Shown here: one piece after another, positions 2 to 12,225 of the stretch
Layout of the letters: each line of letters starts with the position of its first letter
How positions within the stretch are numbered: position 1 is the first letter of the stretch
NCBI RefSeq assembly: GCF_019602855.1
Contig: NZ_CP080766.1
Span: 186,001 to 250,000, forward strand
Length of the DNA: 64,000 nucleotides
Source: Cupriavidus pinatubonensis
GTDB taxonomy: Bacteria > Pseudomonadota > Gammaproteobacteria > Burkholderiales > Burkholderiaceae
Direction of reading: 5' to 3'
Program-made: the position numbers and the translations under genes
The notes under the pieces: generated by a model
What the model saw: the letters and a program-made list of their open reading frames with translations, nothing else
Databases searched by the model: none
Told to the model about the DNA's origin: nothing

Positions 2-1390
2 ATCGCCCAGCTTTCGTACGACACCGAAAGCGCCGGTTCCTTGCGCCATGCGCGCGCCTTGCGGGCACGCATGACCACGCTGATGCCGTTGCTGTCCGCG
101 CTGTCTGCGGTGCTGCAGGCGCTACGCATGCATCCGGCCGGCGTGCCGGCACCGCTCGCGCAGGCGTTGTCGGCGCTCTCGCAATGGCTGCGCGGTGGCC
201 TGGCTGGCTCGCCGCCGCATGCGGATCGCCATGCGCTCGCCAGCGCCGCCGCAGACAGCTGGCACGCGCAGTTGCTCACGGCGGCAAGCAGCCAGCTCAC
301 GCAACTGGCCGCGTTGTGCAGCGACAGCGCAGCGCTCCAGCATGGCATCGGCGACCGGCCCGACCAGCCGCTTCCGAAACTGAGCGATTCCCCCGCCGCC
401 GCAACCATGCCGGCAAGGGGTGCCCTGCATCACGACCACGGCATGCTGCTGTTCGGTGCCGCGTCCACCGGGCTGGCGGTGTTCTGCGCCGGACTGCTGT
501 GGATCTTCTCGGGCTGGACAGACGGCGCCGGGCCGGTGGCAGTGTCCTCCATCGCATGCTGCTTCTTCGCGACCATCGACGAGCCGCGGCCGGTCGCGCG
601 ATCTTTCCTGCGCTGGAGCGCGGTCTGCTTCGTCGTGGCCTCGTTCTACCTGTTCCTGGTGGTACCGCATGCGCAGAACTTCGAGGCGCTCGCTGGCATG
701 CTGGCCGTGCCCTACCTTGGCATCGGCATGCTGATCACACGGCCCGGCTTCAACCTGATTGCCATGCTGCTGTCGGTGAACACGGCATCGTTCGCCAATA
801 TCCAGAGCGTCTACGACGCCAATTTCCTTGGCACGTTCAACGGCAGCCTTGCCAATGCCGCGGCCATGCTGTTCGCACCGTTGTGGGCGCTGGCCACGCG
901 TCCGTTCGGCGCAAGCGTGGCCGCGCGCCGGCTGATCCGCGCTAGCTGGCAGGACCTGGCCGGCGCCGCCGCATGGCCGGGTGCGGACCATGACGCGAAG
1001 CTTGGCGCGCGCATGCTGGATCGCCTCGGCCAGTTGGTGCCACGGCTTGGCGCCGTGCGCGCCGGCCCGGATGGCTTCAGCGAACTGCATGTTGGATTCT
1101 GCGCACTGGCGCTGCGGCGCGCGCTGCCGTCGCTACCCACCGTCGCACGGCGGCCCGTCCGGCGTGTGCTGGCACTGGTGGCGCGCCACTACCGTGCACG
1201 CCTGCGCAGCGGCCATGCCGCAGCGCCGTCCCCCGAATTGCCCGCTTGCATCGACTTGGCTATCGCCCAGATCGCCGCGCTGCCGGGGCATCGGGACGAG
1301 GCGATTGCCGCGCTCGTCGTACTGCGTGTCACGCTGCACGAGCCACACGTCCCCGGCGTACCGGATACAGGAGCCGGCGTTGAACACTGA
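2..1390 (+). CDS. FUSC-family inner-membrane efflux protein, C-terminal part (5' end outside window)
   Basis: The reading frame is open to the window edge, so the gene starts upstream; about 463 codons remain of a family that usually has 650-700 residues. The visible part begins with an Arg/Ala-rich cytoplasmic helix (RHARALRARM), then a second membrane bundle (hydrophobic runs around codons 150-260), then a soluble C-terminal domain. This is the layout of FUSC / aromatic-acid exporter (AaeB-like) proteins. Its stop overlaps the DUF1656 start, and HlyD and NodT partners follow, so it is the inner-membrane component of a tripartite pump for aromatic or fusaric-acid-like compounds. The substrate is inferred from the family only. 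Confidence 0.88.
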   Translation: MAQLSYDTESAGSLRHARALRARMTTLMPLLSALSAVLQALRMHPAGVPAPLAQALSALSQWLRGGLAGSPPHADRHALASAAADSWHAQLLTAASSQLTQLAALCSDSAALQHGIGDRPDQPLPKLSDSPAAATMPARGALHHDHGMLLFGAASTGLAVFCAGLLWIFSGWTDGAGPVAVSSIACCFFATIDEPRPVARSFLRWSAVCFVVASFYLFLVVPHAQNFEALAGMLAVPYLGIGMLITRPGFNLIAMLLSVNTASFANIQSVYDANFLGTFNGSLANAAAMLFAPLWALATRPFGASVAARRLIRASWQDLAGAAAWPGADHDAKLGARMLDRLGQLVPRLGAVRAGPDGFSELHVGFCALALRRALPSLPTVARRPVRRVLALVARHYRARLRSGHAAAPSPELPACIDLAIAQIAALPGHRDEAIAALVVLRVTLHEPHVPGVPDTGAGVEH

Positions 1391-1589
1391 AATCGACCTT
1401 TACGGCGTGTTCGTGCCTGCTCTGCTGGTGCTGATGCTTGCAGCGTTCGCGGCCACCACATGCGTGCGCGTGCTGCTCGCGCGGCTCGGGTTCTACCGGC
1501 ACGTGTGGCATCGCTCCCTCTTCAATCTCTGCCTCTATGTGATCGTCCTGGGCGGCGTCGTCGCCCTCGGTCTGAGGCTGCCGACATGA
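1380..1589 (+). CDS. DUF1656 small membrane protein of the FUSC efflux operon
   Basis: A 69-residue protein with a TTG start that overlaps the end of the FUSC gene. An AGGAG-like Shine-Dalgarno lies about 8 bases upstream. It opens with E-I-D-L-Y-G-V-F, the typical DUF1656 opening, and has two hydrophobic segments (about residues 10-28 and 46-65). Such proteins (AaeX-like) sit between the FUSC and HlyD genes of aromatic-acid efflux operons; their exact role is unknown. The stop overlaps the ATG of the next gene, so the two are translationally coupled. Confidence 0.85.
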   Translation: MNTEIDLYGVFVPALLVLMLAAFAATTCVRVLLARLGFYRHVWHRSLFNLCLYVIVLGGVVALGLRLPT

Positions 1590-2470
1590 CGTTCAGATTC
1601 CGCCCCCTCTTTCGGCTGTTGCCCACGCTGCTGGCACTGCTCGCCGCTGTCCTGGTGCTGCGGCACCTGTGGGATTACTACACGGCCGCGCCGTGGACGC
1701 GCGACGGCCATGTGCGCGCCGATATCGTCCAGATCGCACCGGACGTCTCCGGCCTGGTGACGCGCGTGCTCGTGCACGACAACCAGCAAGTGCGGGGCGG
1801 CCAAGTGCTGTTCGAGATCGACCGCGACCGCTACGCGCTGGCCCTGCAGCAGGCGACAGCGAATGCCGCGGCATTGCGCGCGACACTGACGCAGGCAAGG
1901 CGCGAATCCGCGCGCAACCGCTCGCTCGACGGGCTGGTCGCTGGCGAAGTGGCCGAACAGAGCCGCGCCCGCGTCGAACAGGCCGAAGCCGCACTGGCAC
2001 AGGCCGACGCCACCGTACGCCTTGCGCGCCTGAACCTGGAGCGCACCAGCGTGCTCAGCCCCGCCGACGGCTATCTCAATGACCGCCTGCCGCGGCTGGG
2101 CGACTACGTTTCCACCGGACGGCCCGTGCTGTCCATGGTCGATTCCGCGTCGTTCCATGTGGAAGGCTATTTCGAGGAAACCAAGCTGCACCGCATCCAC
2201 ATCGGCAGCCCGGTCGACGTACATATCATGGGCGAGCCACACCATCTGCGCGGCCACGTGCAGAGCATCGCCGCCGGCATCGAGGACCGGGACCGCAGCG
2301 CCGGCTCCAACCTGCTGCCGAACGTAAACCCGACGTTCAACTGGGTGCGGTTGGCGCAGCGCGTGCCCGTGCGCATCACGTTTGATGCGGTCCCGCCTGA
2401 GGTGCGACTGGTTTCGGGACGCACGGCCACAGTGTCCGTGCAGCAGCCAGTCGCGGAGCGCAAGCCGTGA
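1586..2470 (+). CDS. HlyD-family periplasmic adaptor subunit (AaeA/EmrA-like)
   Basis: A 294-residue membrane fusion protein. It has one N-terminal membrane anchor (about residues 8-28) followed by the conserved Y-T-A-A-P-W-T-R-D-G-H-V-R-A motif typical of AaeA-like adaptors. Next come a biotinyl-lipoyl-like half, a coiled-coil hairpin rich in Ala/Arg/Glu (about 90-165), the second lipoyl half with L-S-P-A-D-G, and a beta-barrel end. It should bridge the FUSC inner-membrane protein and the outer-membrane channel encoded next. The start overlaps the DUF1656 stop and its own stop overlaps the GTG of the next gene. Confidence 0.92.
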   Translation: MTFRFRPLFRLLPTLLALLAAVLVLRHLWDYYTAAPWTRDGHVRADIVQIAPDVSGLVTRVLVHDNQQVRGGQVLFEIDRDRYALALQQATANAAALRATLTQARRESARNRSLDGLVAGEVAEQSRARVEQAEAALAQADATVRLARLNLERTSVLSPADGYLNDRLPRLGDYVSTGRPVLSMVDSASFHVEGYFEETKLHRIHIGSPVDVHIMGEPHHLRGHVQSIAAGIEDRDRSAGSNLLPNVNPTFNWVRLAQRVPVRITFDAVPPEVRLVSGRTATVSVQQPVAERKP

Positions 2471-4020
2471 GGATATGGCGATGGATATGGCTAATGCCAC
2501 TGGTGCCGGCCTTGTTCGCGTGCACCACAGTCGGACCGGATTACCACTTACCGGACACCGCCGCCGTACGCGCCCCGGAAGCCAACGGGAAGCTGCTGGG
2601 CAGTGCGAATCCCGCTGTATCGATCGGCCCGGTCCCCGATGCGTGGTGGCAACTCTACGACGATCCCCGGCTCGACCGCCTGGTCCGCGAGGCGCTCGCG
2701 GCCAACACGGATATCCGCGTGGCATCGGCCAACCTGCGCCGGGCCACGGCTGCGTTGCACGAGGTAGAGGCGGAGAATCTGCCGCAAGGCGGCATCAGCG
2801 CGAGCGTCTCCCGCGCCCAGTTGTCGGGCCAGAGCTACCTGCAGACGACCAAGCCGCCGGTGTTCAACCTCGGGGACTTCGGGCCCGGCGTGTCCTACCT
2901 GATCGACTTCTTCGGCAAGCTTGCGCGGGCCGATGAAGCGGCGCTGGCGAACATGCAGGCCAGCGAAGCAGCCCTCGACGCCGCCCGCGTTGGCGTGGCG
3001 GCCCAGACGGTGCGCGCCTACGTGCAAGGCTGCGCGGCCAGCCATGAACTGGAAGTGGCCCGGCACCAGATTGCGCTGCAGGAACGTGCGGTCGATGCCA
3101 CGCGCAGACTCGCATCTGCCGGCCGGGCCGAACCCACGGACACCGTGCGCGCCCAGGCGCGTGTGGAGGCCTTGCGCGCCGCGCTGCCCCCGCTGGCAGC
3201 CGCGCGCGAAGCCGCCGGGTTCCGACTGGCGCTGGTGCTCGGCAAGCCGCCGGCAGCCCTGCCAGCAGAGGACATCGAATGCCACGAGGAACCGCCGCTG
3301 ACACAACCGCTGCCGGTTGGCGACGGCGCCGCGCTACTCAAGCGCCGGCCCGACATCCGGCAAGCCGAACGCGAACTGGCCGCTGCCACCGCGAAGATCG
3401 GGGTGGCCACGGCCGACCTGTATCCAAGCATCCGGATCGGCGCGTCGGCCGGGCTGACCGGCTTGCTGAGCGAGCTGGGCAGTGGGCCTACGGTCCGCTG
3501 GAGCATTGGCCCGATGCTGAGCTGGAATTTCCCCACCAATGGCGTGCGCCCGCGCATTGCACGCATGGAAGCCGGTGCAGATGCCGCGCTCGCGCATTTT
3601 GATGGTGTGGTATTGCGAGCATTGCAGGAGACCGAAACCGCACTCAGCGCCTACGCGCGCGAGCTGGAGCGACAGCACGCGCTGCAGCTCGCGCGCGACC
3701 AGGCAGTGGAAGCCGCCCGGCAGGAACGGCGGCGTTACGAGGCTGGACGTACGCCATACCTGGCGCGGCTGGATGCAGAGCGAACGCTGGCCGATGCGGA
3801 AGCTGCGCTCGCGGAGTCGGACAGCCTTGTTGCCATGCGTCAGATCGACCTGTTTCTGGCGCTTGGCGGAGGGTGGCAGCAGCCTGAGGGGGCTCCGCGA
3901 GCGGAGGAACGCGGCCACGACGCCTCTCTTCCATTGCCAAAATCGGATACTCGCCCGGACGCCGTCGTGCTCCTGCACGGTGCAGCGCCACCCGCAAGGC
4001 CCTCTTCGCCCCCCGCCTGA
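2467..4020 (+). CDS. NodT-family outer-membrane efflux lipoprotein
   Basis: A 517-residue TolC-like channel with a GTG start overlapping the adaptor stop. The N-terminus is a lipoprotein signal with an A-L-F-A-C lipobox, then T-T-V-G-P-D-Y as in NodT/OprM proteins. Two outer-membrane-efflux repeats follow (about residues 70-260 and 280-460), with long Ala/Arg-rich helices and the R-R-P-D-I-R-Q-A-E-R-E-L-A motif in the second. It completes the tripartite pump with the three upstream genes. A Pro-rich tail of about 40 residues after the last helix is unusual. Confidence 0.92.
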   Translation: MRIWRWIWLMPLVPALFACTTVGPDYHLPDTAAVRAPEANGKLLGSANPAVSIGPVPDAWWQLYDDPRLDRLVREALAANTDIRVASANLRRATAALHEVEAENLPQGGISASVSRAQLSGQSYLQTTKPPVFNLGDFGPGVSYLIDFFGKLARADEAALANMQASEAALDAARVGVAAQTVRAYVQGCAASHELEVARHQIALQERAVDATRRLASAGRAEPTDTVRAQARVEALRAALPPLAAAREAAGFRLALVLGKPPAALPAEDIECHEEPPLTQPLPVGDGAALLKRRPDIRQAERELAAATAKIGVATADLYPSIRIGASAGLTGLLSELGSGPTVRWSIGPMLSWNFPTNGVRPRIARMEAGADAALAHFDGVVLRALQETETALSAYARELERQHALQLARDQAVEAARQERRRYEAGRTPYLARLDAERTLADAEAALAESDSLVAMRQIDLFLALGGGWQQPEGAPRAEERGHDASLPLPKSDTRPDAVVLLHGAAPPARPSSPPA

Positions 4021-4186: not shown

Positions 4187-5392
4187 GTGAACAACGCCAG
4201 CAGCGCGCCCAGGCGTGCGCCGCGGGAAGCCGGACGCAGATCCCGGCGCCTGATCCCCCTCTTGCTTGCCGCAGTGCTCGGCGCGGGCGCGGGCGCGGCC
4301 GTGGCCGAAGACCTGCCGCCCGAGACACTGACGGTGGCGCCGCTGGCGCCCGCCGACGAGAACCGGCTGTATATCTCCGACGTGGCGTTCCGCCACATGG
4401 TCGACGGCCGGCTGCATATCGTGGACGGCAGGAAGATGAAGTACCTGGGCCTGCTGCCCACGGGTTTCGGCGGGCAGTCCGTGCTGTCGCCGGACAAGCG
4501 CTCGATCTATGTCGTTTCCACCTACTACCCGCGCCTGACCCGCGGCGAGCGCACGGATGTCGTCAGCATTTACGACGCCGATACGCTGGCCTACCGCAGC
4601 GAGATCGTGATCCCGCCGCGGCACGCGCAGTCGCTGAACTACCGCGGCATCATCGCGGTATCGGCGGATGGCCGATTCCTGTACGTGCAGAACGCCACAC
4701 CGGCAACATCGGTCAGCATCATCGACCTCCAGGCCGGCAAGTTCGTCGCGGAAACGCAGACGCCCGGCTGCTGGGGCATCTTCGCGACGGCGGCATCGAG
4801 CCAGCGCTTCCGTACGCTGTGCAGCGACGGCGCCATGCTGACCGTATCGCACGACGCTCAGGGCCAGCCCACCGGCCAGAAGCGCAGTACGCGAATGTTT
4901 GATCCCGACGCCGACCCGGTCTTCCTGCACTCGGAACGCATCGGCGACACGCTCTACTTCATGTCGTTCAACGGCAACGTGTACACGGCTGACCTGTCAG
5001 CCGACGCGCCGGCATTCGGCAAGCCGTGGCCCATCCTCTCCGCCGCCGATGCCAGGGGCGGCTGGAAGCCGGGCGGCTACCAGCTCTTCACGCTGCACGC
5101 GGCCACGCAGCGGCTCTACGTCGGCATGCATCCGCGCAGCCGCGAAGGCTCGCACAAAACCCCGGCCGCCGAGATCTGGACCGTCGACCTTGCCGAGCAC
5201 AAGCGCGTAGCACGTGCACCAGGGCAGAACGCGCTGGCGCTGACCATCACGCAAAGTAGCCAGCCGGTGCTGTATGCGCTCGATGCCGCCAAGTCGGGCG
5301 TGGTCGCGCTGGACCCCGCCCGAAACCTGAAGCAGGTCGCGCGCATGGACAACGTCAGCGAGAACTCCGTGCAAGTGGAGGCGCACCAGTGA
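4187..5392 (+). CDS. Amine dehydrogenase large subunit (MauB/AauB-like)
   Basis: A 401-residue exported beta-propeller protein and the large subunit of a TTQ amine dehydrogenase. The GTG start is chosen because CAGGAG lies just upstream and a twin-arginine-like N-region and hydrophobic signal (about residues 15-40) follow. Family signatures include L-Y-I-S-D-V-A-F-R-H-M, L-L-P-T-G-F-G-G, G-C-W-G-I-F and Q-L-F-T-L-H. The stop overlaps the mauE-like start. With the small subunit encoded at 6594 it would form the periplasmic heterotetramer that oxidises primary amines to aldehyde and ammonia. Aromatic specificity is inferred from the small subunit. Confidence 0.93.
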   Translation: MNNASSAPRRAPREAGRRSRRLIPLLLAAVLGAGAGAAVAEDLPPETLTVAPLAPADENRLYISDVAFRHMVDGRLHIVDGRKMKYLGLLPTGFGGQSVLSPDKRSIYVVSTYYPRLTRGERTDVVSIYDADTLAYRSEIVIPPRHAQSLNYRGIIAVSADGRFLYVQNATPATSVSIIDLQAGKFVAETQTPGCWGIFATAASSQRFRTLCSDGAMLTVSHDAQGQPTGQKRSTRMFDPDADPVFLHSERIGDTLYFMSFNGNVYTADLSADAPAFGKPWPILSAADARGGWKPGGYQLFTLHAATQRLYVGMHPRSREGSHKTPAAEIWTVDLAEHKRVARAPGQNALALTITQSSQPVLYALDAAKSGVVALDPARNLKQVARMDNVSENSVQVEAHQ

Positions 5393-5952
5393 CTGCCTAC
5401 GATCTGATCGGCGACCCGGTCGTCACGGCGGCATGTAGCGCAGCCGCAGCCCTGGTACTGCTGCTGTCGGTCGCACCGAAGCTGCGCGAACCGGCTCGCT
5501 TCCATGGCGCCGTCGATGCATACCGCCTCGTGCCGACTGCGTGGTCGCGCGTTGTGGCGATCGGCTTCATCGGCGCTGAGGCCCTTGCCGTGCTACTGCT
5601 CGCGCTGATGCCGCTGCAGGCGGCTTCGGCTCTCGCGGCGATGGGCGTAACTGGCCTGGCAACGGGCGCCGTGGCCATCAACCTGATCCGCGGCCGGCGC
5701 GATATCCGCTGCGGCTGCGGCGGCGCAGACGACAGCATGCCGCTGTCCGCTGGACTGTTGGGGCGCAATGCCGTGCTGCTCGCCGTGCTAAGCATCGCGG
5801 CAGCATCTGCCGCAGTCGGCAACGGCCGGGCCATGTCGGCGCTCGACTATGCCGCCGCAGGCTTTATCGCTCTCGCCCTGCTGCTCATGTGGCTCGGCGC
5901 CACGCAACTGCTCGTCAACGCCGGCCGTGTGCGTGGACCGGTACGAGCCTGA
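5389..5952 (+). CDS. MauE-like membrane protein for amine dehydrogenase maturation
   Basis: A 187-residue DoxX/MauE-type membrane protein with about four hydrophobic segments and a GTG start inside the end of the large-subunit gene. A C-G-C-G-G cluster follows R-R-D-I-R after the second or third helix. MauE and MauD are known to be needed for disulfide formation or stable small subunit in methylamine dehydrogenase systems, so this protein probably passes oxidising equivalents across the membrane to the MauD-like protein. The gene order B-E-D-A matches both mau and aau clusters. Confidence 0.85.
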   Translation: MTAYDLIGDPVVTAACSAAAALVLLLSVAPKLREPARFHGAVDAYRLVPTAWSRVVAIGFIGAEALAVLLLALMPLQAASALAAMGVTGLATGAVAINLIRGRRDIRCGCGGADDSMPLSAGLLGRNAVLLAVLSIAAASAAVGNGRAMSALDYAAAGFIALALLLMWLGATQLLVNAGRVRGPVRA

Positions 5953-5986
5953 ATCCCCTTTTCCTCTCTTTCTTCGTGAGACTGCC

Positions 5987-6574
5987 ATGACTGCACTTGT
6001 CATTGCCAATATCGTGCTGTGGATCGCCGTGCTGGCGCTGTTGTTCGGGCTCTACGCCCTTGCCCGCCAGGTCGGCATCCTGTATGAACGCGTCGCCCCG
6101 ATGGGCGCGCTGATGATCGACGCCGGCCCGCGCGTTGGCCAGCCGCTGGAGCCGTTCGCGCTGCAGGACGTGCGCGGCACCTCCGTCACCGTGGGCGGCC
6201 ATCAGGCGGCCAGCACGCTGCTGTTCTTCCTGTCGCCGACCTGCCCGGTCTGCAAGAAGCTGATTCCCGTCCTGAAGTCCATCCGCGCGAGCGAAGGCAA
6301 CTGGCTGCGCATCGTGCTCGCGTCCGACGGCGAGCAGCCCGAGCATCTGGCCTTCCTGCGCCAGGCCGGCCTGGGCGATTTCGACTACGTGCTGTCGCGC
6401 GAACTCGGCATGCATCTGCAGATCGGCAAGCTGCCTTACGCGGTGCTGCTGGACGAGCACGGAACGCTGCGCGCCAAGGGCCTGGTCAACTCCCGCGAAC
6501 AGCTCGAGAGCCTGTTCACGGCGATGGACCTGAACGTGGCGTCGGTGCAGCAGTTCCTGGAAACGCATGCCTGA
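5987..6574 (+). CDS. MauD-like membrane-anchored thioredoxin-fold protein
   Basis: A 195-residue protein with an N-terminal membrane anchor (about residues 5-28) and a periplasmic thioredoxin fold carrying the redox motif C-P-V-C within S-P-T-C-P-V-C-K-K. A cis-Pro region (K-L-P-Y-A-V-L-L-D) follows. MauD-type proteins are thought to form the many disulfides of the TTQ small subunit, here 14 cysteines. The ATG is chosen because it begins the hydrophobic anchor. The gene ends 19 bases before the small-subunit start. Confidence 0.9.
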   Translation: MTALVIANIVLWIAVLALLFGLYALARQVGILYERVAPMGALMIDAGPRVGQPLEPFALQDVRGTSVTVGGHQAASTLLFFLSPTCPVCKKLIPVLKSIRASEGNWLRIVLASDGEQPEHLAFLRQAGLGDFDYVLSRELGMHLQIGKLPYAVLLDEHGTLRAKGLVNSREQLESLFTAMDLNVASVQQFLETHA

Positions 6575-6593
6575 GCGGCAAGGAGACACGACG

Positions 6594-7109
6594 ATGTGGT
6601 TTGACAAGCTTTTCGAACGCCAGACCCGCCGTGCCGCCCAGCGCACCGGGCGACGCAGCATGCTGGCCACGCTGGGCAAGGCCATGGTGGGCACGGTGGC
6701 ACTGCCGGTGCTGCCGTTCGACCGCAGCGCGCATGCCGCGGCCGCACACGGCGCAAAGACCGGCAAGGCCGTGGACGAAACCTCGTGCGACTACTGGAAG
6801 TACTGCGCCGTCGACGGTTTCCTCTGTTCGTGCTGCGGCGGCAGCTCCACCACCTGCCCGCCGGGCACCGAGCCATCGCGCGTGTCGTGGGTCGGCACGT
6901 GCCGCAACCCGGCGGACGGCAAGGACTACATGGTCAGCTACAACGACTGCTGCGGCAAAACCACCTGCGGCCGGTGCGAGTGCAACACCAACGAACGCGA
7001 GCGTCCGGGCTACAAGCTCGGCGTGCACAACGACGTGAACTGGTGCATGAGCAACTCGAGCACGATGTTCCATTGCACCACCTCGATCATTCTCGGAGTT
7101 CAGGAATGA
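6594..7109 (+). CDS. aauA: Amine dehydrogenase small subunit with TTQ cofactor site (aromatic amine dehydrogenase type)
   Basis: A 171-residue catalytic subunit. The ATG at 6594 is preferred over one at 6567 because AAGGAG lies upstream and the earlier one lies inside the mauD-like gene. A twin-arginine-like leader (G-R-R-S-M-L-A-T-L-G) precedes the mature domain. The two tryptophans that become TTQ are W99 (S-W-V-G-T-C) and W150 (N-D-V-N-W-C-M), 51 residues apart as in known enzymes. The Asp residues used in cofactor synthesis and catalysis are D74 and D118 (N-D-C-C-G). It has 14 cysteines and the D-C-C-G-K-T-x-C-G-R-C pattern, which fits aromatic amine dehydrogenase rather than the 12-Cys methylamine enzyme. 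The gene symbol rests on this resemblance; the substrate is untested. Confidence 0.93.
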   Translation: MWFDKLFERQTRRAAQRTGRRSMLATLGKAMVGTVALPVLPFDRSAHAAAAHGAKTGKAVDETSCDYWKYCAVDGFLCSCCGGSSTTCPPGTEPSRVSWVGTCRNPADGKDYMVSYNDCCGKTTCGRCECNTNERERPGYKLGVHNDVNWCMSNSSTMFHCTTSIILGVQE

Positions 7110-7561
7110 AATTCCGCTCGCACCCAATGTGGCTGGCGCTCTTGCTCGCTGGCGCCGCAGCCACGGCCAGCGCGGCAGATCTCGTCGCACAAGGCAAGGA
7201 AGTGTTCGCCGCCAACTGCGCAGCCTGCCACAACAACGATGCCAGCGGCATTCCGGGCGTGGCGCCGCCGCTGGCCAATGCGCTGCGCGAACGCCTCGGC
7301 TCTGCCGCAGGCCGGACGTATCTGGCCAATGTGCTCGTGCACGGCATGGCCGGCCCGATCGAATCGCAGAGCCAGTCATTCAATGGCGTGATGCCGGCCT
7401 TCGGCACGCTGCCCGACGAATCGCTGGCCGCCGTGCTGGCGTGGCTCGGCACGCAGAACGGCCAGGCTACGGCCACCGTTGGCCCCGACGCGCTGGCCCA
7501 GGCACGCGCGCAGCGCAAGACGCCGGGCGCCGTGCGCAAGCTGCGCGACGCGGCGAACTGA
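7106..7561 (+). CDS. Exported monoheme cytochrome c, probable electron acceptor of the amine dehydrogenase
   Basis: A 151-residue class I cytochrome c. A signal peptide (cleavage near A-S-A-A-D) precedes one heme site C-A-A-C-H at about residue 39 and a probable distal Met in G-V-M-P-A-F. Its ATG overlaps the small-subunit stop (ATGA), so the genes are coupled. No azurin or amicyanin gene is present, so this cytochrome or its neighbour is the likely acceptor of electrons from TTQ. A single heme rules it out as a diheme MauG. Confidence 0.9.
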   Translation: MKFRSHPMWLALLLAGAAATASAADLVAQGKEVFAANCAACHNNDASGIPGVAPPLANALRERLGSAAGRTYLANVLVHGMAGPIESQSQSFNGVMPAFGTLPDESLAAVLAWLGTQNGQATATVGPDALAQARAQRKTPGAVRKLRDAAN

Positions 7562-7562
7562 C

Positions 7563-7982
7563 ATGCAGCGCGCCGCGATCCGTCTCGTCCTGGCATGGCT
7601 GGCCACTGCGGTGGTGGCCGGCGCCGCGCAAGCCGAAGGCCGGCTCGAGCGCGGCCACGCCAACTACGTGCTGCACTGTTCCGGCTGCCATCTGCCGGAC
7701 GGATCGGGCAAGCCGGCGGCAGGCATTCCGGACATGCGCGCCACCCTGCCGCAACTGCTGGCCACGGCCGCCGGGCGTGCGTTCCTGATCCAGGTGCCCG
7801 GCACCTCGGGCTCATCGCTGACGAATGCCGAGGTCGCCGAACTGATGAACTGGATGCTGCCCGCACTGACCGGCCGCCAGGACATCGCCCCGTTCACCAC
7901 CGAAGAAGTCACACGCTATCGCAATGACCGTCTGGACGACGTGGCCGCGCACCGCGCCGCCATTCTCGGCACCAGCCGCTGA
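7563..7982 (+). CDS. Second exported monoheme cytochrome c
   Basis: A 139-residue protein with a signal peptide ending near A-Q-A-E and one heme motif, C-S-G-C-H, followed by L-P-D-G-S-G. A Met in N-W-M or Q-V-P region could be the distal ligand but is not certain. It starts one base after the previous cytochrome gene stops. It may relay electrons from the amine dehydrogenase toward the terminal oxidase, or serve as a maturation oxidant. Its sequence is only distantly like the first cytochrome. Confidence 0.87.
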   Translation: MQRAAIRLVLAWLATAVVAGAAQAEGRLERGHANYVLHCSGCHLPDGSGKPAAGIPDMRATLPQLLATAAGRAFLIQVPGTSGSSLTNAEVAELMNWMLPALTGRQDIAPFTTEEVTRYRNDRLDDVAAHRAAILGTSR

Positions 7983-8016
7983 ACCGACACATCCATCAAG
8001 ACATCCGAGGAGACCC

Positions 8017-9516
8017 ATGGATACCCGTACCGAACTGCTTTCCGCCGCCACCCGCGCCTTCCTGCAGCGCCCGAAGCGCATGCTGATCGACGGCCAGTGG
8101 TGCGCCGCAACCGATGGCGCCGTGTTCACCACGGAAGACCCGGCCAGCGAGACCACGCTGGCTGAAGTACCCGCCGCCGGACCGGCCGACGTCGATGCAG
8201 CCGTGCAGGCAGCGCGCGCGGCCTTCGAACAAGGCCCGTGGAACGCCATGCGCCCGTCGGACCGCGAACGCCTGCTGCTGCGCCTGGCCGACCTGGTGGA
8301 AGCCAATGCCGAGGAACTCGCGCAGATCGAAGCGCTGGACAACGGCAAGCCCGCGACCATGGCTCGGGCGATCGATGTGGCCGGTGCCGCGGGCTTCCTG
8401 CGCTACATGGCAGGCTGGGCCACCAAGCTACACGGCGAAAGCCTCGACGTGTCGGTGCCGCTGGTGCGCGAGCGCGAGTTCGTCGCGTTTACGCGCCAGG
8501 AAGCCGTGGGCGTCGTAGGCGCCATCATCCCGTGGAATTTCCCGCTTCTGATGGCCGCGTGGAAGCTCGGTCCGGCACTGGCCTGTGGCTGCACCGTGGT
8601 GCTCAAGCCGGCCGAGGAAACGCCCCTGTCGGCACTGCGCCTGGGCGAGCTCGTGATGGAAGCTGGCTATCCCGCAGGTGTCGTCAATATCGTCACCGGA
8701 GACGGGGCACGCTGCGGCGCGGCGCTGGCCGGCCATCCGCAGGTCGACAAGATCGCGTTCACCGGGTCGACAGAAGTCGGCAAGCTCGTCGGCGGCGCAG
8801 CAATGGAGCGCTTGGCGCGCGTGACGCTGGAACTCGGCGGCAAGTCGCCCGTGATCATGCTCGACGACATGTCGCCGGAGGCCGCTGCCACAGGCGCCGC
8901 ACAGGCCATCTTCTTCAACCAGGGCCAGGTGTGCACCGCCGGCTCGCGGCTGTACCTGCCACGCTCGAAGTTCGATGCGACCGTGCAGGCACTGGCCGAT
9001 ATCGCCAACAGCCTGCGCCTGGGGCCGGGCCTGGAGCCGGACACCGGCATGGGTCCGCTGGTTTCGCGCCGACAGCACAAGCGCGTGGCGGGCTATGTGC
9101 AGGCCGGTGTGGATGCCGGAGCGCAACTGATCTGCGGCGGCAATGCCGACCTGCCGCGCGGCCACTTCTTCAAGCCCACGGTGCTGGCGCGTGCACCGGA
9201 GACGTCATCGGTCGTGCAGGAGGAAATCTTCGGGCCCGTGGTCGTGGCACTACCCTACGATGACATCGACGAAGTGGTCGGCCGCGCCAATGGCACGCCG
9301 TTCGGATTGGCGGCGTCGGTCTGGTCCAATGATCTTTCGCGCGTGCATCGACTGGTGCCGCGGATCAAGGCCGGCACCGTCTGGGTCAATTGCCATAACC
9401 TGCTCGACAACGCGATGCCGTTCGGCGGCTTCAAGCAGTCCGGGCTCGGCCGCGAAATGGGCCGCGCCGTGTTCGACCACTATACCGAGACCAAATCGGT
9501 CATGATCGCCGTGTAA
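8017..9516 (+). CDS. NAD-dependent aldehyde dehydrogenase (phenylacetaldehyde dehydrogenase-like)
   Basis: A 499-residue ALDH-superfamily enzyme. Conserved elements are I-I-P-W-N-F-P-L, F-T-G-S-T-E-V-G, the general base Glu in L-E-L-G-G-K-S-P, the catalytic Cys in N-Q-G-Q-V-C-T-A-G-S and E-I-F-G-P-V. The ATG at 8017 has GAGGAG upstream; the longer frame upstream overlaps the cytochrome gene. No signal peptide is visible, so it is cytoplasmic. In this operon it would oxidise the aldehyde released by the periplasmic amine dehydrogenase to the acid, as FeaB does in phenylethylamine breakdown. The exact substrate is inferred. Confidence 0.9.
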   Translation: MDTRTELLSAATRAFLQRPKRMLIDGQWCAATDGAVFTTEDPASETTLAEVPAAGPADVDAAVQAARAAFEQGPWNAMRPSDRERLLLRLADLVEANAEELAQIEALDNGKPATMARAIDVAGAAGFLRYMAGWATKLHGESLDVSVPLVREREFVAFTRQEAVGVVGAIIPWNFPLLMAAWKLGPALACGCTVVLKPAEETPLSALRLGELVMEAGYPAGVVNIVTGDGARCGAALAGHPQVDKIAFTGSTEVGKLVGGAAMERLARVTLELGGKSPVIMLDDMSPEAAATGAAQAIFFNQGQVCTAGSRLYLPRSKFDATVQALADIANSLRLGPGLEPDTGMGPLVSRRQHKRVAGYVQAGVDAGAQLICGGNADLPRGHFFKPTVLARAPETSSVVQEEIFGPVVVALPYDDIDEVVGRANGTPFGLAASVWSNDLSRVHRLVPRIKAGTVWVNCHNLLDNAMPFGGFKQSGLGREMGRAVFDHYTETKSVMIAV

Positions 9517-9546
9517 TTGCCGCCGGCTGCCGACGGGTTTCCCACC

Positions 9547-11217
9547 ATGACAAGACAGACCATGAACGATACTGCCCCCTCATCGTCCACTCCGCAGCCC
9601 ACCCCGCAGCCCGGCCGGCGACAGTGGCTGAGCCACCTGGCCGGCGCCGCCGTGACCACGGTTGCCGCCGCGGCCATGACCAGCCGGACCGCCAGCGCCG
9701 CCCCTGCGGGCACGGCACCTGCCGCGTCCGGCCCCGGCACCGCCGGCGGTGGGACGCCAGACCCGATCGTGCTGATGCCGGCGTGGCAGCTTTCACGCGA
9801 GATCCGCGGCGGCCGCCTGTCCTGCCGCCAGGTCATGAATGCCTACCTGGCGCATATCGACCGCGTCAATCCGGTGACCAACGCCATCGTCGCGCTGCGG
9901 GATCGCGATGCCCTGATGCAGGAAGCCGCCGCTGCCGACGAGGCGTTCGCCGCGCGCAAAGTGGCGGGATGGATGCAGGGCGTGCCGCAGGCGCCGAAGG
10001 ATCTGGCCCTCACGCGCGGCATTCGTACCACGTTCGGCTCGCCGATCTTCAAGGACAACGTGCCGACGTCCGACGCAATCATCGTAGAACGCGTGCGCAA
10101 ATCCGGCGCGATCCTGCTCGGCAAGACCAATACGCCCGAGTTCGGCCTGGGCTCGCAGACCTTCAACCCGGTGTATGGCCCCACGCGCAATCCGTACGAC
10201 AGCACGCGCACCGCGGGCGGCAGCAGCGGCGGCGCCGCGGCGGCACTGGCCATGCGTCTGCTGCCTGTGGCGGACGGCAGCGATTTCGGCGGTTCGCTGC
10301 GCAACCCGGCCGGGTTCTGCAATGTTTATGGCTTCCGTCCTTCGGCGGGACGCGTGCCCTATGGGCCCACGCCGGAAGTCTTTATCCAGCAGCTCGGCTA
10401 TGAGGGCCCGATGGGCCGCACGGTCGCTGACGTGGCCTTGCTACTCGCCACCCAGGCCGGCCCCGACCCGCGCACGCCGCAGGCGCTCGCGCCAGACCCA
10501 GTGCTCGCCACGCTGACGCCGGACAACGTCATGGCCGCGCTGTCGACGAACCTGAAGGGCAAGCGCGTGGCATGGCTCGGCGACTGGGACGGCTATCTGC
10601 CGATGGAAGACGGCATCCTTCAGCTGTGCGAGCAAGCCCTGCAGGCCTTCCCGGCCTTTGGCGTCGGTGTCGACAAGATCAAGCCGCCTTTCTCACCCGA
10701 GCGCCTGTGGAAGACCTGGCTCGTGCACCGGCACTTCCTGGTCGGCAACGGCATGCTGCCGTTCTACCGCGACGAAGCCAAGCGCGCGCTGCTCAAGCCC
10801 GAAGCGATCTGGGAAATCGAAGGTGCGCTCAAGCTTAGCGGCGCGGACATCTATGCGGCCAGCGCCGACCGCAGCGCGTGGTATCAGGCTGTGGAAGGCG
10901 TCTTTGCCAAATTCGACTACATCGCCGTGCCGACCGCACAGGTCTTTCCGTTCGATGTGCGTCAACCGTGGCCCAAGGAAATCGCTGGCCGGCAAATGGA
11001 TACCTACCACCGCTGGATGGAAGTCGTATTCCCGTGGACGTTGTCGGGCTGCCCGGCAATCAGCGTGCCGGTCGGCTTCGGCAAGAACGGGCTGCCGATG
11101 GGCATGCAACTCATTGGCCGTCCGCGCGATGACCTGAGCGTCTTGCGCCTGGCTCGGGCATACGAGCAGGAACGCGACTGGGTGGGCCGCCACCTGCCGC
11201 GCGCGGTGATGGCCTGA
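9547..11217 (+). CDS. Exported amidase-signature hydrolase
   Basis: About 556 residues of the amidase signature family (Ser-cisSer-Lys). The catalytic Lys lies in the early A-P-K-D-L region or in I-F-K-D-N-V-P, the cis-Ser in A-G-G-S-S-G-G, and the nucleophile in D-F-G-G-S-L-R. An N-terminal stretch with G-R-R-Q-W-L-S and a long Ala-rich hydrophobic run looks like a Tat signal, so the enzyme is probably periplasmic. The start could also be the ATG at 9562. It follows the aldehyde dehydrogenase by 30 bases. It may release an amine or acid from an N-acyl amine for the pathway; this is inference. Confidence 0.87.
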   Translation: MTRQTMNDTAPSSSTPQPTPQPGRRQWLSHLAGAAVTTVAAAAMTSRTASAAPAGTAPAASGPGTAGGGTPDPIVLMPAWQLSREIRGGRLSCRQVMNAYLAHIDRVNPVTNAIVALRDRDALMQEAAAADEAFAARKVAGWMQGVPQAPKDLALTRGIRTTFGSPIFKDNVPTSDAIIVERVRKSGAILLGKTNTPEFGLGSQTFNPVYGPTRNPYDSTRTAGGSSGGAAAALAMRLLPVADGSDFGGSLRNPAGFCNVYGFRPSAGRVPYGPTPEVFIQQLGYEGPMGRTVADVALLLATQAGPDPRTPQALAPDPVLATLTPDNVMAALSTNLKGKRVAWLGDWDGYLPMEDGILQLCEQALQAFPAFGVGVDKIKPPFSPERLWKTWLVHRHFLVGNGMLPFYRDEAKRALLKPEAIWEIEGALKLSGADIYAASADRSAWYQAVEGVFAKFDYIAVPTAQVFPFDVRQPWPKEIAGRQMDTYHRWMEVVFPWTLSGCPAISVPVGFGKNGLPMGMQLIGRPRDDLSVLRLARAYEQERDWVGRHLPRAVMA

Positions 11218-11232
11218 CGACGGAAAGACCGG

Positions 11233-12225
11233 TCAGCGGCGCGCGAGCGTCGCTGACGGCAGTTCGCCGAAGAACGCGCGGTACTGCGCTGCAAATCGCG
11301 GCAGATGCTGGAAGCCGAAGCTTGCTGCAGCCCCGCCGACGGACTCCGCCGCGCCGGTGCGAAGCGCCTGGCGTACGCCGTTCATGCGTACGGCGCGCAC
11401 GAAATCGAGCGGCGACAGCCCGGTCACCTCATTGAAGCTGTACTGCAGCGTGCGCCTCGACACGCCCAGCCGTTCGCACAGCGACAGGATGCTCCACGGC
11501 TGGTCGGGGGCGCTGCGGATCATCTGGTAGGCGTCCGCCACCAGCCGGCGCCGCGCGGGGATGGTCGGCAGTGGTTCGTTGCCGTCAATGCCTTCGCCGA
11601 CCAAGGCGGTCGCGGCCGCCAGTAGCAAGGCGTCGCGCATCGCGCTTTCGACAAAGCGGTTGCTGAATACCTCGGCATCGATGGCGGCAGTGGCCAGTAC
11701 CGACAGCAGTACGGCCCGGAATTCGCGGCTGGCGCCTTTCGTCACCTGCCGTACGGGCGCCATCCGTTCCAGCCGGAGCGTCTCCCCGCCAGCCAGCGCC
11801 ATGGCGCGCTGAAGCGCCGGCATCGGCACGGTCAGCCCGGCGAGATCGAGTTGCAGTGGCGTGCGCATCGCCAATGCGCGGCCGTTGCCGGCACACAGCA
11901 GTGTCTGGCCGTCCATCGCGTAACCGGAGAACCAGCCACCCTGGCACTGCACGTCGGGCAAGGCCAGCGAGACATAGCCGCGCGCCGCTTCGCCCTCCTC
12001 AAGCAGGCTCTGCGACGTCAGTTCGCGGAAGACATGGACATCACCGTATGTCACCTGGGATACCTCGGCGCGAAAGACGCCGGGCGTGAGTTGCTGGTAA
12101 CGCTGTTGCCAGCCGTCCAGTTCCGCGGCGGCCGCCTGCGCTTCATCGGCGACGATGTGCCGCAGCGTGCGCGCGGCCGCCGGTTCCTGCGGGGACGGTG
12201 AAGATGGCGTCGGGGCTTGATTCAT
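11233..12225 (-). CDS. AraC-family transcriptional regulator (EutR-like)
   Basis: A 330-residue regulator with a poorly conserved N-terminal sensor half and a C-terminal pair of helix-turn-helix motifs (about residues 225-325): S-I-L-S-L-C-E-R-L-G-V-S-R-R-T-L-Q for the first, and F-G-F-Q-H-L-P-R-F-A-A-Q-Y-R for the second. The ending F-F-G-E-L-P-S-A-T-L resembles EutR. It converges on the amidase gene with a 16-base gap, so it is probably the amine-responsive activator of the operon, though its promoter is 8 kb from the operon start. No clear Shine-Dalgarno precedes the ATG. Confidence 0.88.
   Translation of the reverse strand: MNQAPTPSSPSPQEPAAARTLRHIVADEAQAAAAELDGWQQRYQQLTPGVFRAEVSQVTYGDVHVFRELTSQSLLEEGEAARGYVSLALPDVQCQGGWFSGYAMDGQTLLCAGNGRALAMRTPLQLDLAGLTVPMPALQRAMALAGGETLRLERMAPVRQVTKGASREFRAVLLSVLATAAIDAEVFSNRFVESAMRDALLLAAATALVGEGIDGNEPLPTIPARRRLVADAYQMIRSAPDQPWSILSLCERLGVSRRTLQYSFNEVTGLSPLDFVRAVRMNGVRQALRTGAAESVGGAAASFGFQHLPRFAAQYRAFFGELPSATLARR

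Follow-up and report, generated by a model that had tools for sequence, protein, structure and literature searches.

A loop-deleted monoheme cytochrome c as a candidate maturation protein for the tryptophan tryptophylquinone of aromatic amine dehydrogenases

How is the cofactor tryptophan tryptophylquinone (TTQ) completed in an aromatic amine dehydrogenase (AADH) whose operon contains no MauG? The question is raised by a 64,000-nucleotide stretch of Cupriavidus pinatubonensis (contig NZ_CP080766.1, G000:C1:186001-250000; the whole stretch is termed the window), part of a 7.5-Mb genome in four contigs. It encodes the AADH subunits (aauB and aauA), two accessory proteins (aauE and aauD) and two small cytochromes c (cytA and cytB). 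To our knowledge, no enzyme has been demonstrated to complete TTQ in AADH. In methylamine dehydrogenase (MADH), the first tryptophan hydroxylation is thought to be autocatalytic and MauG is needed for the later steps, as stated in an excerpt of PMC7876137, and MauG oxidizes two tryptophans via a five-coordinate heme and a Tyr-His heme, as stated in an excerpt of PMC6405878. The evidence presented here suggests, with a probability of roughly one-half, that cytB finishes the TTQ of AADH without MauG.

The clade and residues of the light chain indicate that the operon encodes a TTQ-dependent AADH, TTQ itself being predicted. The light chain scores 201.6 bits against Alcaligenes faecalis AADH (2agl_D), with which it shares the Trp, Asp and Cys pattern, versus 117 to 147 bits against six MADH sequences and 99 bits against a seventh. 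A quick light-chain tree (68 rows after near-copy thinning, with some long branches, and with L155, L212 and cut-off rows omitted) separates MADH from AADH with a support of 100 and places the window chain in the AADH clade. The columns of both TTQ tryptophans, W99 and W150, and those of D108 and D118 are invariant in 63/63 AADH and 5/5 MADH rows, and D74 is kept in 62/63 and 5/5, respectively. Alignment thus upholds the original prediction, made from the letters of the window, of a light chain with both tryptophans, the cofactor-building aspartates and 14 cysteines, as in AADH. The closest light chains, those of Cupriavidus numazuensis and C. yeoncheonensis, are 98 to 99% identical.

The gene set and order from the large subunit to the amidase also agree with that prediction, as judged from open reading frame coordinates and family profiles (Table 1). 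The same is true of its statement that the only heme proteins of the cluster are two monoheme cytochromes c: among the eight operon proteins, a CXXCH motif occurs in cytA and cytB alone, once in each. The cytA start overlaps the aauA stop, and cytA and cytB lie a single base apart. A second AADH operon, on contig 3 of the same genome (L151, also L016; G000:C3:113500-133499, light chain C3:123437-123763), has its own cytA and cytB, and its light chain belongs to a different AADH branch than that of the window.

The two cytochromes are not equivalent, which refines the earlier description: the Met ligand is missing in cytB only. Thermus cytochrome c552 is the closest solved sequence for both. 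The match of cytA to c552 (77 bits) extends over 113 residues, and its Met ligand (MP) is invariant in 52/52 relatives. The gene is optional, being adjacent in 55 of 89 cytB operons and absent within 1.2 kb in the other 34, and its product is probably the electron acceptor of AADH. On the grounds of this optional presence and the retained ligand, cytA was rejected as the maturase, as was a split MauG made of cytA plus cytB.

Homology of cytB to c552 is evident from the match of its profile to chain 2fwl (78 bits, E value of 5.3e-21), but the alignment skips the ligand loop, an advance from 52 to 54 in the profile corresponding to one from 51 to 69 in the chain, with residues 52 to 68 of 2fwl_A missing. 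From the GR motif to the aromatic residue of the C-terminal helix there are 24 residues in 71/71 cytB sequences versus 42 to 44 in 52/52 cytA sequences, and the Met-ligand loop of cytB is about 18 residues shorter. The Met following this loop in 2fwl_A is the c552 heme ligand; the aligned cytB column holds mostly Ala or Ser (Ser in the window), and Met is absent in 64/71. Beyond CXXCH there is no conserved His, Met, Lys or Cys, the best columns containing M in 33, H in 30, K in 16 and C in 0 of 71 sequences. Because the loop is shortened and no substitute ligand is conserved, the cytB heme is predicted to be open and five-coordinate.

cytB is 139 amino acids long, with a single CXXCH and about 110 mature residues. 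CxGCH, one Gly, one Pro, GR, the V and G of VPG, and two Arg are fixed in 71/71 sequences, an NW pair is nearly so (N in 70/71, W in 67/71), and a C-terminal extension carries Tyr in 59/71 and Phe in the remaining 12. cytB matches neither the two-heme CCP_MauG family PF03150 nor any NCBIfam model; its Pfam matches are to generic cytochrome models only.

The main rival explanation gives cytB a different role, either accepting electrons from AADH as a dedicated carrier or serving the enzyme as an assembly or structural partner, with TTQ made otherwise. We regard this as unlikely, though well worth weighing. cytB is a small cytochrome of an electron-carrier family, and the 34 operons in which cytA is missing nearby would leave room for it as acceptor. 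Nevertheless, loss of the Met ligand is odd in an electron carrier, and the majority of cytB operons also encode the normal c552-like carrier cytA. Furthermore, the electron acceptor of A. faecalis AADH is azurin.

Distribution ties cytB to AADH. A profile built from 32 cytB sequences was searched in 369 genomes of the class, at most 11 candidates being scored per genome. It gave 11 matches of ≥143.9 bits, in 10 genomes, the next best being 58 bits; all 11 have a light-chain gene no more than about 1.2 kb away, and none lies elsewhere. All 11 sequences belong to the profile itself, so their detection is not independent, whereas the absence of strong matches elsewhere is. An independent check comes from the phylum sample, where 11/11 AADH loci (L156 to L166) have an adjacent cytB, outside the model, at ≥112 bits; two weak partial PF02975 matches of this sample (G664 and G694) were left out. 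Across two evenly drawn samples (L141 to L166 less the MADH-like L152, L154 and L155), 21 of 23 AADH loci have an adjacent cytB. The exceptions, L144 and L153, are both in genome G120, whose third AADH locus, L145, does include cytB. L144 and L153 are two-gene aauB-aauA loci with no aauE, aauD or cytB nearby, while operon L145 is complete.

A wider census comprised 118 rows representing 116 distinct loci (L172 repeats L028, and L167 extends L044). Eighty of the 116 were chosen by likeness to the window light chain (the best 80 of 328), so sampling was not random; public plasmids contributed nine loci. At 89 loci, counting the decayed L212, cytB follows the light-chain gene at a distance of at most 1.1 kb; cytB of L038 is cut by the contig end. 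The remainder consists of 11 loci with a divergent cytB plus dihemes in the locus, 4 MADH loci with a MauG-type diheme and 12 with neither in the stretch examined. Among these 12, the genomes of L040, L047 and L049 carry a divergent cytB plus dihemes on a different contig; at L060, L063, L071, L074 and L155, the sequence runs out no more than 174 bases from the light-chain gene; and L043, L144, L153 and L154 are left over. Excluding the four truncated AADH loci and the MADH-type loci (L152, L154, L155 and L209 to L211, with L155 assigned by eye, outside the tree), one of the two forms of cytB goes with 103 of 106 untruncated AADH loci (89 adjacent, 11 divergent in the locus and 3 on another contig), and neither form occurs in any of the five testable MADH loci.

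The other near-constant genes of AADH loci are aauB, aauE and aauD. In a BLAST clustering of the neighbors of 40 cytB loci, the commonest other family was present at 18. Distances for aauA and cytB are correlated (r = 0.61 over 51 operons; Mantel 0/1,000). Together with the nearly invariable position of cytB beside the light-chain gene, this covariation would also be expected of an electron acceptor or partner protein. In G006 (L147), aauA and cytB are adjacent and the sole aauB match is on another contig; there, cytB is tied more tightly to the light chain than the large subunit is. A plasmid of Sphaerotilus sulfidivorans (L212) carries a decayed operon of this kind: next to cytA and cytB, only fragments of aauE, aauD and aauA are left.

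A different possibility, which we consider very unlikely, is that an unlinked MauG-like diheme enzyme finishes TTQ. The absence of MauG from the cluster was confirmed by a whole-genome profile search, which found no PF03150 match near the operon. The genome-wide search for a diheme homologue that the original prediction had proposed did find one, L001 (G000:C1:2529302-2529817), 2.3 Mb from the operon; it is the single PF03150 match and the only gene recovered in this genome with the TIGR03791 model or the MauG protein as the query. In alignment, L001 retains the MauG positions H35, W93, Q103, P107, E113, H205 and Y294 and therefore remains a candidate in this strain as far as sequence goes. 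On the other hand, it fits the MbnH-family model best (126.5 bits) and MauG nearly equally (125.3 bits), both far below the cut-off, and no aau or mau genes were seen in the 3.5 kb around it. L001 itself (L001:943-2316, minus strand) is an MbnH-like diheme, and an adjoining small lipoprotein-like open reading frame (L001:2223-2753, minus strand) may, by eye, be its substrate.

Other genomes speak against a general requirement for such an enzyme. PF03150 is absent from 4 of 21 even-sample genomes, G465, G591, G659 and G006, all of which encode AADH and cytB (of 18 AADH genomes); G465 and G591 are single contigs listed as 100% complete, and G659 and G006 are listed as 100% and 96% complete. TIGR03791 found nothing in G465, G591 and G006 and a single 20.8-bit match, in a 182-residue frame, in G659, and the MauG protein as the query gave no match in any of the four. 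Four genomes with AADH and cytB, two of them single contigs, thus lack a credible MauG-superfamily match. Because G465 and G591 are single contigs without a match, a detectable MauG-superfamily enzyme is not generally needed for AADH. Furthermore, if cytB were only an acceptor or partner, AADH in such genomes would have no known maturase. The original prediction had offered three routes to TTQ, namely an unlinked enzyme, one of the cytochromes or some other route; the data favor the second, specifically cytB, and weaken the first as a general solution.

Among 50 further AADH genomes, PF03150 is absent from 4 (G410, G387, G388 and G375). The draft genome G410 (Rhodopseudomonas) is also negative with TIGR03791 and the MauG protein, and the metagenome-assembled genomes (MAGs) G387 and G388 are negative with TIGR03791, although absence from G388 means little because its AADH contig ends 1.7 kb downstream. 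G375 (Cupriavidus neocaledonicus) was withdrawn as a MauG-free case, since TIGR03791 found a distant 463-amino-acid diheme with, by eye, Tyr at the Tyr294 position; PF03150 alone therefore misses distant dihemes, and G377 likewise holds one. The TIGR03791 cut-off (444 bits) was ruled out as a test of MauG identity, the MauG of Paracoccus denitrificans scoring 97 bits. In Achromobacter denitrificans and an Azonexus MAG, the sole PF03150 protein has Met, the ordinary cytochrome c peroxidase (CCP) ligand, and not Tyr at the Tyr294 position, which also speaks against an unlinked MauG. A Methylobacterium-like MauG-type protein (L261:225-1235; 342.6 bits to TIGR03791) occurs in the AADH- and cytB-containing genome G314, its gene being followed by a small cytochrome near the contig end.

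Where an adjacent cytB is missing, a distinct arrangement (class 2) usually takes its place. Adjacent cytB is lacking at 17 untruncated AADH loci, and 14 of these have a divergent cytB plus MauG-like dihemes, located no more than 14 kb from the light-chain gene in 11 cases and on a different contig in 3, the divergent cytB sitting just before the dihemes. Class 2 loci fall on at least two separate branches of the light-chain tree, and all those seen are from MAGs; at L030, L032 and L067, the only sign of the second diheme is another PF03150 match some 1.1 kb farther along. Conversely, no diheme was found in the stretch examined at any of the 89 loci with adjacent cytB, 71 of which have ≥5 kb on both sides. 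A divergent-cytB profile searched in the same 369 genomes (E value of 1e-8) gave three matches (37 to 46 bits), each to a cytB gene within an AADH operon. Since it reached 3 of 11 cytB genes and no other cytochrome, the two forms are taken to be related.

The paired dihemes depart from MauG in complementary ways, although their pocket columns are alignment dependent. Diheme B keeps Gln103 in 10/10 and Glu113 in 8/10 and has Phe at the Tyr294 position in 9/10, and diheme A has Tyr or His at the Tyr294 position, with Gln103, Pro107 and Glu113 lost in 11/11. Such tandem pairs were observed in L167, L168, L169, L172, L073, L069, L068 and L094; in the last, both occupy one 866-amino-acid open frame with four CXXCH motifs (L094:1531-4128), an apparent fusion. 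A strict exclusion of cytB by dihemes was dropped as a description, as diheme loci contain divergent cytB; the exclusive pair is adjacent cytB versus the diheme-containing trio. Because class 2 keeps divergent cytB, the swap shows linkage of heme proteins to AADH and not that cytB has the function of MauG.

In the proposed mechanism, AauE and AauD would guide export, folding and disulfide formation of the light chain, and one Trp would gain the first hydroxyl. cytB would then dock on the pre-enzyme, its five-coordinate heme being activated by H2O2 or O2, and would pull electrons from W99 and W150, leading to the cross-link, the second oxygenation and oxidation to the quinone. cytB would thereby supply in AADH the function of the five-coordinate heme of MauG. 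Where present, cytA would take electrons from the mature enzyme, in the slot of amicyanin in the mau system of P. denitrificans. Only the reaction type, and that as a proposal, would be shared with MauG, MbnH and bacterial CCP: these are dihemes, two members of which are carried by class 2 AADH loci, whereas cytB has one heme.

The steps assigned to cytB might instead be autocatalytic or use generic periplasmic oxidants, with only AauE and AauD helping. The first step in MADH offers a precedent, and the near constancy of aauB, aauE and aauD is compatible with it. However, MADH has the same two Trp and the Asp residues and requires MauG for the later steps (excerpt of PMC7876137), and the near-universal, AADH-specific heme protein cytB would be left unexplained. 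We consider this explanation highly improbable.

Several observations weigh against a maturation role for cytB. Its co-occurrence with AADH fits an electron acceptor or assembly factor too, and, over the 32 operons with both cytochromes, the correlation of aauA with cytB (r = 0.70) is not above that with cytA (0.75). A monoheme protein would need to handle the multielectron oxidation that MauG does with two hemes. Met occupies the aligned ligand column in 7/71 cytB sequences. Some CCP_MauG protein is found in most AADH genomes (46/50 and 14/18), as an unlinked diheme enzyme would predict. Neither cytB nor dihemes were found in the stretch examined at L043, L144 and L153; the MAG contig carrying L043 extends 1.7 kb downstream, and the other two share a genome with another, cytB-bearing operon. 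Finally, the co-occurrence of divergent cytB with dihemes means that the function of cytB may be other than MauG chemistry.

The mau cluster of P. denitrificans (L210) shares with the window the light- and heavy-chain families, MauE, MauD and the TTQ residues but differs in having MauF, MauJ, MauG, two NapG/NapH-type ferredoxin proteins and amicyanin and in lacking cytB. A MauG-less aau cluster has reportedly been described for A. faecalis (Chistoserdov, 2001), and its genes likewise stand in the order BEDA. The A. faecalis light chain is most similar (78%) to that of an Achromobacter operon with cytB, and the monoheme cytochrome reportedly encoded by orf-2 of the cluster may be cytB. In the open-license papers searched, no report was found of the cytB family, its ligand loss or the swap of cytB and dihemes, and no title or abstract opening dealt with AADH maturation; most of the relevant biochemistry journals lie outside that scope.

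Downstream of the cytochromes, the operon continues with an aldehyde dehydrogenase and an amidase, and the convergent AraC-family gene beyond them is probably its regulator. Upstream, the genes at positions 41 to 4020 of the window resemble, by eye, a membrane-fusion and outer-membrane efflux set.

Table 1. Genes of the AADH operon and the adjoining regulator gene, in window positions
Gene and product	Position	Strand	Basis
aauB, AADH large subunit	4187..5392	+	PF06433, 154 bits; GTG start codon
aauE, MauE-like membrane redox protein	5389..5952	+	PF07291, 82 bits
aauD, MauD thioredoxin-like accessory protein	5987..6574	+	TIGR02661, 199.6 bits, above cut-off of 188.6
aauA, TTQ-bearing small subunit (light chain; TTQ predicted)	6594..7109	+	PF02975, 178 bits; 201.6 bits to 2agl_D; TTQ residues
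cytA, c552-like monoheme cytochrome with Met ligand (GVMP)	7106..7561	+	77 bits to Thermus c552
cytB, monoheme cytochrome with deleted ligand loop and no Met ligand; proposed to mature TTQ	7563..7982	+	Anatomy; AADH specificity
Aldehyde dehydrogenase, phenylacetaldehyde dehydrogenase-like	8017..9516	+	NF045735 (StyD), 727 bits, cut-off 850
Amidase	9547..11217	+	PF01425, 313 bits; NF005686, 841 bits
AraC-family regulator, convergent to operon	11233..12225	-	PF12833, 74.6 bits; EutR-like, 113 bits, below cut-off

These results narrow the TTQ question for AADH to a single gene, cytB. Tentatively, cytB may represent a new type of TTQ maturase, a monoheme cytochrome c that was derived from a carrier by deletion of the ligand loop and that performs or completes the cross-link and oxygenation of two tryptophans; AADH may have relied on it ancestrally, with at least two later replacements by a divergent cytB and a complementary-degenerate diheme pair. 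If true, a single open c-type heme would be enough for a protein modification that has until now been attributed to a diheme bis-Fe(IV) enzyme, and a simple evolutionary path would lead from an electron carrier to a modifying enzyme. cytB would then also be a guide to the heterologous production of AADH.

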